NCBI RefSeq assembly: GCF_026162645.1
Contig: NZ_JAOTBE010000002.1
Location: 62,001-126,000 of the forward strand
Direction of reading: 5' to 3'
DNA: 64,000 nucleotides
From: Paracoccus rhizosphaerae
GTDB lineage: Bacteria; Pseudomonadota; Alphaproteobacteria; Rhodobacterales; Rhodobacteraceae
Shown: positions 1,330-49,861 of the stretch, piece after piece
Numbering within the stretch: the stretch's first letter is position 1
Layout: the number at the start of each line of letters is the position of its first letter
Position numbers and translations under genes: made by a program
Notes under the pieces: model-generated
What the model was told of the DNA's origin: nothing
Seen by the model: only the letters and a program-made list of their open reading frames with translations
Databases searched by the model: none

Positions 1330-3072
<1,743 letters not shown>

Positions 3073-29163: not shown

Positions 29164-29202
29164 GGGGGGACGGCCAGTCCCCCCGCCGTCGCGGGACGCA
29201 AT
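29164..29202 (+). repeat. Convergent-end hairpin repeat, copy 2
   Basis: GGGGGGA-CGGCCAG-TCCCCCC followed by GCCGTCGCGGGACGCAAT. Its tail is identical to that of copy 1 (15338-15374). It sits between the convergent uspA and queE genes and touches the queE stop codon. Confidence 0.6.
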
Positions 29203-29906
29203 CATACCCCGCGCTTGTTGCCCCACAGCATCACGTGCAGCTGCGGCAGGACGCGCGCTGCAAACCAGCCGTCGGCGCAGACCTTCTCGACCAGCCACAG
29301 GACGCGGTCGGCCACATCCTGCGCCGCCACCGGCACTGCCGGATCAACCTGCGGATTGCCCGGCTGCAGATAGAGCGGCAGGTCAGGATACCTGCCCGCC
29401 ACCTCCTGCGCCCAAGCATAATCCGTCTCATTGAAGATCACGATCTTCAGCGCCATCCATGGGGCCCCTGCCGCAATGCACGCCTCAAACGCCGCCCAAT
29501 CGGGTTGCTCGCCGCTGGAGGGCGGCTTGGGGCTCAGGACCAGCATCGCCAGATCCTCGAACCAGTCCCGCGCAATAGACCCCTGGGTCTCCAGCGCGAA
29601 GGCGTATCCCTCGGCCCGCCCCGCCTTGATCAGCGGCCCGAAATCCTGGATCGCCGGATTGCCACCGGAAATCGACACCGTCAACGGCCGCCCGCCCGAC
29701 AGCGCCCGCACCCGGTCCATGACCTCTCCGCTCTCCATCGCGGCCCAAGTGTCGCGGAAGGCGCTGTCCACCGCGTGCATCGAATCGCACCAGGAACAGC
29801 GATAGTCGCAGCCGCCGGCGCGGACGAAGACCGTCGGCTGGCCAATCAGCGCGCCTTCGCCCTGGATGGTCGGGCCGAAGATCTCGGCGATGCGCAGGCG
29901 GCTCAT
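29202..29906 (-). CDS. queE: 7-carboxy-7-deazaguanine synthase
   Basis: A 234-residue radical-SAM enzyme converting 6-carboxytetrahydropterin to 7-carboxy-7-deazaguanine. The cluster motif is CDYRCSWC in [18 protein letters not shown], preceded by [13 protein letters not shown], the QueE substrate-binding N-terminus. Start ATG 29906 ([10 protein letters not shown]) overlaps the queD stop by four bases (ATGA). Last gene of queC-queD-queE. Confidence 0.95.
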
Positions 29907-30256
29907 GGCCGAAACTCCGCCCAGGTTTTCGGCGTCTCGCTGACCTTCACGGCGCTGACCTCCGGCCATCGCGAGCGGCACCACAGGAAGAAATGCCGCG
30001 CCAGGTTCTCGGCCGTCGTCGGCCCGTCCAGCACGTCGTTCAGGTGGCGGTGATCAAAGCTTTCGTCGATATAGGCCTTCAGCGGCGCCAGTTCGTGATA
30101 GTCGCGCAAGAAGCCGTCCGCGTTCAGATCCGGCGCCGCCAGCTCCACCACCACGACATAGTTGTGGCCGTGCAGCCGCGCGCATTGGTGATCGGGCGCC
30201 AGATGATCCAGCCGGTGCGAGGCGCTGAAGTGGAACTCCTTGCTGATGCGGAACAT
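29903..30256 (-). CDS. queD: 6-carboxy-5,6,7,8-tetrahydropterin synthase
   Basis: A 117-residue PTPS-family enzyme making 6-carboxytetrahydropterin from dihydroneopterin triphosphate. Zinc ligands are His in FSASHRLDH and in [10 protein letters not shown], and the catalytic Cys is in [14 protein letters not shown] 30256 overlaps the queC stop by one base; a GTG one codon upstream is possible. Second gene of the que operon. Confidence 0.95.
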
Positions 30257-30963
30257 CACGCGCCCTCTGCCGCATGGGCGGCGACGGCGGCCTTCCAGTA
30301 ATCGGGATCATCGTAGTCGGTCGGGTCGGCCACGCCAGCCAAGTGGAACGCCTCGCGCCGCTCGACGCAGGTGCCGCAGCGCCCGCAATGCCGCGCCCCA
30401 CCCTTGTAGCAGGACCAAGTCTGCGCGAAGGGCGTCCCGGCAGCAGCCCCCGCCGCCACGATGTGGGCCTTGGTCGCGCGCACGAAGGGCACGTCCAGCG
30501 CGACATCGGCATAGCCGTCCAGCGCCGCCCGCTGCATTTCGCCGAAGGCGTCGGTGAAGGCCGGGCGGCAGTCGGGATAGATGAAATGGTCGCCCCCGTG
30601 CACCGCCGCCGCGACCGCCGCGTCGCCATTGGCGGCGGCAATGCCGAAGGCGATCGTCAGCATGATCGGGTTGCGGTTCGGCACCACGGTGACGCGCATC
30701 GTCTCCTCGGCGTAGTGGCCGTCAGGCACGGCCACGTCGTCGGTCAGCGCTGACCCCGACAGGGCCGCCCCCAGGCCCGACAGATCGACCAGGTGGAACG
30801 GCACCTGCAGCCGCCGCGCGCATGCGGCGGCGAAATCCAGTTCCTTGCGATGGCGCTGGCCGTAATCGAAGCTGACGATGCGCGACAGGCGCCCCTGCGA
30901 TGCCAGCACATGCGCCAGCGATACGGAATCGAGTCCGCCAGAGCAGACAAGCGTGGTGTTCAT
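30256..30963 (-). CDS. queC: 7-cyano-7-deazaguanine synthase
   Basis: A 235-residue ATP-dependent enzyme converting 7-carboxy-7-deazaguanine to preQ0. The PP-loop SGGLDS is at residues 8-13 and a C-terminal Zn cluster has four Cys in the CGRCGTC region. Start ATG 30963 (MNTTLVCSGG). A preQ1-I riboswitch motif ends seven bases before it, so translation is probably repressed by preQ1. First gene of queC-queD-queE; queF and folE are not in this window. Confidence 0.96.
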   Translation of the reverse strand: MNTTLVCSGGLDSVSLAHVLASQGRLSRIVSFDYGQRHRKELDFAAACARRLQVPFHLVDLSGLGAALSGSALTDDVAVPDGHYAEETMRVTVVPNRNPIMLTIAFGIAAANGDAAVAAAVHGGDHFIYPDCRPAFTDAFGEMQRAALDGYADVALDVPFVRATKAHIVAAGAAAGTPFAQTWSCYKGGARHCGRCGTCVERREAFHLAGVADPTDYDDPDYWKAAVAAHAAEGA

Positions 30964-30970
30964 CCTGTGA

Positions 30971-31006
30971 CCCTTGTTTTTGTGACCCGGGTAGGCTGCG
31001 ACCGGG
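30971..31006 (-). promoter_or_regulatory. preQ1-I riboswitch aptamer upstream of queC
   Basis: Minus-strand RNA reads P1 5' strand CCCGG, loop TCGCAGCCTAC, P1 3' strand CCGGG, then TCACAAAAACAAGGG. P1 is a perfect 5-bp helix. The GGTCGCAG loop and the A-rich ACAAAAACAAGGG tail match, from memory, the Thermoanaerobacter tengcongensis preQ1-I aptamer almost base for base. The tail ends in AAGGG, seven bases before the queC ATG, so the ribosome-binding site is inside the aptamer, as in translational preQ1-I switches. The first enzymes of the preQ1 pathway lie directly downstream. Confidence 0.9.
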
Positions 31007-31045
31007 AAACGCCCGGTTATCATCAGCGATGCCGGATGTGAAGGG

Positions 31046-31822
31046 TCAGGCGGGCAGGCCGCCGTCCGAATCGTCGCCCGATTCCTCGACCAGACGGGCG
31101 AAATCAGGAAGGATGACGCCGCGCTTCCCCTCCAACTCGATCACGCCGTCGCGTTTCAGCGCGGTGATCTGGCGGCTGACGGTTTCGATCGTCAGGCCCA
31201 GGTAATCCGCCATCGCCTCTCGGGTCAGCGGCAGTTCCAGCACCATCCGCCCGCCGGGCTGGCGCTTGTGCAGCGCCGCCTGACGCCGCGCGATGATCGA
31301 AATGAACGACGCGATCTTTTCCCGCGCCGTCTTTCGCCCCAGAAGCAGCATCCATTCGCGGGCCGCGTCCAGCTCGTCCAGCGTCATCTCCAGCAGGCGA
31401 TGCGCCAGATGCGGGGTCGCACGCATCATCTGGTCGAAGGGCTTGCGCCGGAAACAGCACAGCACGACCTTGGTCGCCGCCGTCGCGTTGTACGCCGCCT
31501 GATCGCGCCCCGGACGGCCGAGGAAATCGCTTGGCAGCAAAAGGCCCACCATCTGGGTGCGACCATCCTCCAGCGTCTGCGTCAGCGAGGCCACCCCCGT
31601 CACGACCGAGCCGACGAAGTCCATGCGGTCGCCTTCCCACACGATCGGCTGGCCGGCCTCGTAGGTGCGATAGAACTTCATCTCCTCGAGATTGCTCAGC
31701 TCCTCGCCTTCGCAATGGGCGCAGACGGCCCTGTACCTGATCGGACAGTCCGTGCAGCGCATGTCCTCATGCGTTGTGCCCTTCGAACCGGGCTTGATCT
31801 GGGTCAAGGCAGGTGTGCGCAT
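31046..31822 (-). CDS. fnrL: FNR-type oxygen-sensing transcription regulator FnrL
   Basis: A 258-residue CRP/FNR protein from ATG 31822. Four N-terminal Cys (23, 26, 34, 37; CTDCPIRYRAVCAHC) and Cys122 fit an oxygen-labile [4Fe-4S] cluster. The nucleotide-binding-like barrel and dimer helix precede the helix-turn-helix LTREAMADYLGLTIETVSRQ, whose E..SR recognises TTGAT half-sites. Starts at 31843 (265 aa) or 31762 (238 aa) are also possible; with the shortest, an FNR box at 31794-31807 would lie in the promoter, not in the gene. Divergent from hemN. Confidence 0.93.
   Translation of the reverse strand: MRTPALTQIKPGSKGTTHEDMRCTDCPIRYRAVCAHCEGEELSNLEEMKFYRTYEAGQPIVWEGDRMDFVGSVVTGVASLTQTLEDGRTQMVGLLLPSDFLGRPGRDQAAYNATAATKVVLCCFRRKPFDQMMRATPHLAHRLLEMTLDELDAAREWMLLLGRKTAREKIASFISIIARRQAALHKRQPGGRMVLELPLTREAMADYLGLTIETVSRQITALKRDGVIELEGKRGVILPDFARLVEESGDDSDGGLPA
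31794..31807. promoter_or_regulatory. FNR-type box at the fnrL-hemN divergence
   Basis: TTGAT-CTGG-GTCAA, nine of ten consensus bases, centred 41.5 bp upstream of the hemN ATG. Depending on the fnrL start it is either intergenic or encodes the TQIK residues of FnrL. It could activate hemN or autoregulate fnrL. Confidence 0.8.

Positions 31823-48179: not shown

Positions 48180-49861
<1,682 letters not shown>

Follow-up and report, generated by a model that had tools for sequence, protein, structure and literature searches.

The leader of queC in Paracoccus rhizosphaerae very probably carries a preQ1-I riboswitch of the type II pattern, belonging to an alphaproteobacterial branch that falls below the Rfam cut-off, and would lower translation of the preQ1-making genes when preQ1 is plentiful. 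The element lies on the minus strand at 31006-30971 of the window (the whole 64-kb stretch of DNA analysed here), between the stop codon of fnrL (31046; NCBIfam FnrL, 444.6 bits against a cut-off of 300) and the queC ATG (30963-30961). It consists of a 5-bp hairpin with an 11-nt loop and an A-rich tail, TCACAAAAACAAGGG, which runs into the queC Shine-Dalgarno sequence, such that the leader reads CCCGG-TCGCAGCCTAC-CCGGG-TCACAAAAA-CAAGGG, followed by seven bases and the queC ATG. The features of the locus are as follows.

31014..31042, minus strand: supposed promoter (TTCACA 31042-31037, 17 bases, TAACCG 31019-31014), picked by eye from likeness to relatives such as L027 and L030
31002..31006, minus strand: P1 5' strand, CCCGG; its outer pair covaries
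30991..31001, minus strand: hairpin loop TCGCAGCCTAC, 11 nt, made up of TCGCAG (supposed P2 half), CCTA and the supposed preQ1-pairing C directly 5' of the P1 3' strand
30986..30990, minus strand: P1 3' strand, CCGGG, from sequence and covariation
30977..30985, minus strand: L3, A-rich TCACAAAAA, putatively crossing the P1 minor groove; its length is coupled to the fifth P1 pair
30971..30976, minus strand: CAAGGG, from sequence, supposed P2 3' half and queC Shine-Dalgarno
30256..30963, minus strand: queC, the regulated gene (NCBIfam TIGR00364, 160.4 bits, cut-off 150.3; Pfam QueC)
29903..30259, minus strand: queD, overlapping queC and queE (TIGR03367, 87.7 bits, just under the cut-off of 89.25)
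29202..29906, minus strand: queE (TIGR03365, 345.4 bits, cut-off 206.1), its start taken as the first ATG of the listed frame in line with the family start

These coordinates confirm the 5-bp CCCGG/CCGGG helix and the A-rich tail ending seven bases before the ATG, both of which figured in the original prediction, and they place the Shine-Dalgarno AAGGG (30975-30971, seven bases 5' of the ATG) within that tail, in keeping with its proposed double role. The loop had been given as TCGCAG; these letters are present, but account for only the first half of the full 11-nt loop. The further claim that the downstream genes make the preQ1 precursor agrees with QueC and QueE scoring above their NCBIfam cut-offs, and QueD just below. 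The window holds a single instance of the core pattern, which none of 100 dinucleotide shuffles reproduced. Model R2, built solely from 40 elements from outside the window's genus (alignment A2), makes one match at E up to 10 in the 64 kb, and this is the window copy, with 50.0 bits and E 5.6e-13.

Relatives of queC were picked by protein alone, and in 79 of the best 80 matches listed (70-88% identity) the element lies just 5' of the start codon, the exception being L049. All 79 read CCGG-TCGCAGCC[TC]AC-CCGG, then CAAAA(A)CAAGG before the start; within 3 kb flanks, 75 of the 80 loci have QueD and QueE downstream, and 52 have QueF. For whole genomes a looser pattern was used, which fixes only GGTCGCAG, ACCC and AAAACARG, with GGTCGCGG also allowed in the class scan. 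It was found in 19 of 61 relatives, every one of these a member of the window's genus, and in at least 21 of 248 family, 8 of 357 class and 11 of 339 phylum genomes, where the samples overlap and the counts are lower bounds because the scans require the pattern; the reversed pattern, used as a control, gave 0 in every row shown. Model R1 found at least 24 of 248 family and 13 of 385 class genomes, with only 26 or 17 candidates scored per genome; six weak matches (L132-L134, L140, L141 and L145) were unconvincing by eye and are uncounted. At 60 of the 61 distinct places carrying the pattern, a QueC (45) or QueF (15) match starts 3-71 nt downstream on the same strand. The remaining place, L236, is the sole one outside the Alphaproteobacteria in the phylum scan; having three P1 pairs only and no QueC, QueD, QueE or QueF downstream, it was taken as a chance match, and is kept in the counts of 61 here and 133 below.

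Within the genus, the element is present in 19 of the 26 genomes with a queF match and in none of the 11 without one. Seven genomes have one copy at queC and another at queF, with the genes apart; five have a single copy, at queC, and there queF lies about 1.1 kb further downstream; and the other seven lack a queC match and carry their copy at queF. In seven further genomes queF is present and the element absent, and R2 at E up to 10 gave no match in these seven queF loci, nor in L049 or L236. The P. rhizosphaerae genome itself holds a second copy on another contig (model R1, 37.1 bits, E 2.5e-6), directly 5' of a QueF gene (TIGR03139, 143.7 bits, cut-off 86.9) with a TTG start chosen by eye; R2 scores it at 40.4 bits, and a 251-base scan gave no RF00522 match at E up to 10. 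A third R1 match in this genome (C178, 19.7 bits, E 0.106) lies inside a 241-codon open frame and was taken as chance.

Several individual loci merit description. The queF leader L178, of genome G021, keeps by eye the promoter-like letters and the AAAACAGGAG tail with the hairpin missing, and may perhaps represent natural loss of the aptamer; the queC-like gene of the same genome (66% identity) is also absent from the pattern matches. Fulvimarina manganoxydans (L031) carries, with the element, a queC 82% identical to that of the window, with no queD, queE or queF in its 3 kb flanks, and the same leader letters recur in IMG/VR contig L252; this queC and its element are possibly mobile. In Thioclava sediminum (L040), the strand opposite queC carries a TPP riboswitch (2696-2790, minus strand) some 200 bases upstream of the gene.

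Evidence for an RNA structure comes from alignment A1, in which 60 distinct elements (the window's and those of other loci) share 27 invariant columns. The outer P1 pair is A-U in 31, C-G in 13, U-A in 7, G-U in 4, U-G in 2, G-C in 1 and unpaired in 2, and is therefore paired in 58 of 60 rows by all six standard types. Double-changed cells number 23 at this pair against 7.4 in shuffles, and the covariation score is 0.226 against 0.047, with 0 of 500 shuffles as high by either measure. Two other measures do not clearly beat the shuffles, namely further pair types (5 against 3.8; 37/500) and the number of pairs with a double change (500/500 as high). Covariation of P1 in related genomes, which the original prediction had set as a refuting check, is thus found at the outer pair. 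The four inner pairs are invariant in A1, and the third and fourth swap in five distant elements only: the queF element L160, in which the fourth pair becomes G-C, and four phage elements with other P1 sequences (L245, L248, L260 and L261). The letters of the A-rich L3 and tail are present and invariant in A1, as are the residues expected to touch the ligand in all 60 rows; with the P2 letters invariant, covariation of P2 cannot show. The AC directly 5' of the P1 3' strand is likewise invariant (60/60), in rows gathered with an expression that fixes the C of AC and leaves the A free.

A wider set of 133 distinct elements, in which flanks were included when counting distinct sequences, reveals a second structural signature. 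The loop is TCGCAGCCTAC in 103, TCGCAGCCCAC in 26 and one of four others once each, and the tail is CAAGG in 119 and CAGG in 14. When its length is measured from the fifth 3' position as far as CA(A)GG, L3 is 9 nt long in 74 elements, 10 in 25, 6 in 29, 8 in 3, and 12 and 14 once each. The fifth P1 pair is formed in all 101 elements with an L3 of at least 9, in 1 of 3 with 8, and in 5 of 29 with 6 (Fisher p 2e-19 for L3 of at least 8 against 6, a statistic that ignores shared descent). Three genera of the same family have short forms at queC as well (L207, L212 and L218), so the split is not merely one of queC against queF. Such coupling fits an L3 that crosses the P1 groove, and argues for an H-type pseudoknot. 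Plain folding, which models neither pseudoknot nor ligand, instead prefers for the window leader a different structure, in which the Shine-Dalgarno G's are base-paired and P1 has a mean probability of 0.03; its stability does not exceed that of shuffled sequences (z 0.44). Across 88 leaders, the same kind of program, blind to pseudoknot and ligand, returns a median P1 probability of 0.40 and a G-G unpaired probability of 0.29. Among 87 CAAGG elements, the ninth loop position is linked to the letters after AAGG, GGGA following in 11 of 12 elements with C and in 4 of 75 with T; no pairing explains this link, which may reflect shared descent.

The original prediction also called for a search with the Rfam covariance model, and here the outcome is literally against it: RF00522 gave no significant match, scoring 18.3 bits (E 0.25 against 4227 families) as the best of three matches in a permissive scan of 401 bases, against a gathering score of 39 bits. 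Neither preQ1-II (RF01054) nor preQ1-III (RF02680) was among these three matches at E up to 10. A gathering-level Rfam scan of the window did not list the element. The window also contains a match to 5_ureB_sRNA (48325-48614, minus strand, 74.6 bits); a conserved urease gene, to which this family would be antisense, may account for it. Searched against the whole genome, RF00522 ranks the element as its best match (E 0.609). With stricter filters at E 0.001 it found nothing in 190 alphaproteobacterial genomes, the window's own included, few of which are carriers; 20 of the 80 queC loci, each carrying the element, gave no match at gathering level. In 40 carrier genomes at E up to 10, its best match was at the element in 19 and elsewhere in 14 (in two of the latter, G016 and G313, the element ranks second), with no match in 7. 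As the model also responds in 13 of 14 control genomes at this threshold, only the positions of matches are informative, and the 12 top matches over the 40 genomes are all the element (best 36.1 bits, E 1.8e-5). None of the 40 passed the cut-off, and the window's queC copy was absent among the matches listed in that run, which scored a shorter list of candidates than the whole-genome search above. A gathering cut-off is a detection threshold and not a structural feature, and in our view the comparative evidence outweighs its being missed. The assignment to preQ1-I is upheld by conservation, gene association, outer-pair covariation and P1-L3 coupling, each of which is observed in the sequences compared.

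The original prediction remarked on the position of the element directly downstream of fnrL, inside an oxygen-responsive block. This proves to be a local neighbourhood only, as fnrL lies upstream in 5 of the best 80 queC loci listed, all from records named Paracoccus, and the element in 79. We accordingly give neither fnrL nor oxygen control a part in the mechanism, since the leaders also have a promoter-like signal of their own. In 87 distinct leaders, the 60 bases 5' of P1 hold a best sigma-70-like match that scores 6.89 on average, compared with 6.12 in shuffles (sd 0.07) and 6.00 in the preceding 60 bases, and the -10 box starts 13-17 bases before CCGG in 56 of the 87. The boxes in the window are weak: its own best-scoring sigma-70-like match lies elsewhere, and a consensus promoter scan of the window did not find them. 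A transcript from the supposed promoter would have its 5' end near the first base of P1, and read-through from fnrL into the leader may also occur.

Relatives of the element occur on phages. In viral contigs the pattern gave 21 stretches, of which 2 precede queC, 2 precede one YhhQ-like gene and 1 precedes queT; 16 of the 21 had no QueC, QueD, QueE or QueF match, and the pattern is thus less specific here than in cellular genomes. Viral loci chosen for YhhQ-like relatives have the element upstream in 4 of 4, two of which encode the same protein. Model R1 scored 27.1, 24.8, 16.3 and 12.1 bits in the four viral contigs tested, and RF00522 scored 21.4-25.5 bits in 3 of 4 scanned. In five IMG/VR contigs (L248, at 2524-2562, L257, L260, L261 and L245), preQ1-I-like elements that differ in P1 sequence immediately precede genes of the Vut_1 (YhhQ-like, PF02592) and QueT (PF06177) families, as assigned by Pfam in L248 and L245. 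In these two contigs the gene before carries DUF6610, and might, as a guess, encode a DNA-modifying deazaguanine enzyme. In L241 (60-99) and L242 an element-like stretch (R2, 22.2 bits) has no recognised queuosine gene after it.

Three other readings of the conserved block deserve consideration. It could be a DNA operator for a repressor protein of the queuosine pathway, overlapping the transcription start, and not an RNA aptamer; the near-invariance of CCGGTCGCAGCC[TC]ACCCGG, just downstream of a promoter-like signal, would suit such a site. An operator is nevertheless hard to reconcile with an outer P1 pair that changes on both sides together and whose formation is tied to L3 length, with an A-rich tail that merges into the Shine-Dalgarno sequence, or with the RF00522 model ranking the element first over 40 genomes, and we regard this reading as highly improbable. 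We think it scarcely credible that the block is a conserved translation-initiation leader or protein-binding site devoid of metabolite sensing. The tail does hold the Shine-Dalgarno sequence, and plain folding favours other structures, but a generic leader should not stand at preQ1 genes in 60 of 61 places in cellular genomes, have relatives before phage YhhQ-like and QueT transporter genes, or keep the residues expected to touch the ligand unchanged in 60 rows.

The remaining reading concerns the ligand, as a preQ1-I-like aptamer might sense another deazaguanine (preQ0) or guanine. QueC makes preQ0, QueF consumes it in the step from preQ0 to preQ1, and sequence cannot reveal a ligand. A copy precedes queF, however, and it would make little sense for this gene to be repressed by the substrate of its enzyme; we therefore give this variant a very slim chance, and the queF copy suggests preQ1 rather than preQ0 as the effector.

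Under the preferred reading, that of a preQ1 riboswitch acting on translation, the ligand, the pseudoknot contacts, and the direction and level of control are drawn from the known family. In the absence of preQ1, the Shine-Dalgarno sequence in the leader would be available, and queC, queD and queE translated. Given enough preQ1, the metabolite would stack on P1 and pair with the C just 5' of the P1 3' strand, the A-rich L3 would dock into P1, and the CAAGG tail would pair with the loop TCGCAG, hiding part of the Shine-Dalgarno sequence and thereby lowering translation. Nested folding of the window leader, which pairs the Shine-Dalgarno G's with no pseudoknot involved, speaks against so simple a scheme. 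The queF copy on the other contig would close the same feedback loop at the last step, from preQ0 to preQ1.

Among known preQ1 riboswitches, the element appears closest to type II preQ1-I. The Thermoanaerobacter tengcongensis aptamer has a 5-bp P1 topped by GG/CC, TCGCAG at the start of its loop, and the tail CAAAACAAGG; P1 with GG/CC adjoining the loop is likewise present in the window element and the A1 rows. Type II is marked by AC before the P1 3' strand, and T. tengcongensis belongs to it (PMC11625349). The window element shares the AC directly before the P1 3' strand, and the likeness asserted in the original prediction holds, by this AC rule and by letter agreement. The window loop is one base longer, with CCTA in place of the TAA of T. 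tengcongensis, and P1 is nearly fixed here as CCGG/CCGG. The T. tengcongensis riboswitch is translational, burying the first two Shine-Dalgarno bases (PMC11625349; PMC3905878), and controls a putative transporter (PMC3905878), whereas the present element precedes synthesis genes. In this it resembles the type II riboswitch of Bacillus subtilis queCDEF, which has the same genes downstream and acts by transcription termination (PMC11625349); it differs in mode, no terminator-like site having been found at 30900-31300. Type III, known from Escherichia coli, is translational, with AC at the specificity base, UU flanking the P1 5' strand and a fully paired AAGG (PMC11625349). The window element is similar in its Pseudomonadota host and in the AC at the specificity base, but U-C, not UU, flanks the P1 5' strand in all 60 A1 rows; we conjecture that the loop CCT might pair with AGG. 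The preQ1-II and preQ1-III classes bind the same ligand with other folds (PMC11625349).

More tentatively, and with considerable doubt, the alphaproteobacterial elements may form a preQ1-I subtype of their own. It would be defined by a near-fixed CCGG/CCGG P1, a loop TCGCAGCC[T/C]AC, two size forms (a 5-bp P1 with a long L3, and a 4-bp P1 whose L3 is some three bases shorter), and a loop CCT adding anti-Shine-Dalgarno pairing to AGG. Phages would carry relatives of it upstream of transporter genes of their own for deazaguanine precursors, and two of these contigs have an adjacent DUF6610 gene that may modify DNA.

Earlier surveys describe preQ1 riboswitches as mostly limited to Firmicutes and one or two proteobacterial lineages, in a study tabulating 15 Rhodobacterales and 15 Rhizobiales genomes (PMC3766115), or as present in only a few groups, gamma-Proteobacteria being named (PMC2258182); another lists pathogens (PMC9495176). 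In what was accessible of the preQ1-riboswitch literature on Alphaproteobacteria (Rhodobacter, Paracoccus, rhizobia, Roseobacter), queC or phages, we found no report of the element. Type II is described as including Pseudomonadota (PMC11625349), so some of these sequences may have been collected earlier. The kind of riboswitch is already known; it is this branch that lies below the cut-off of the standard RNA library. Feedback control of queuosine synthesis by its product through a very small RNA would thereby be extended to Alphaproteobacteria that RF00522 misses at its cut-off, among them genomes in which queF was matched and queC was not. The way in which P1 length and L3 length go together amounts to a natural experiment on how far an H-type pseudoknot tolerates change, and where a genome has two copies, it can be tested directly which of the steps is under control.
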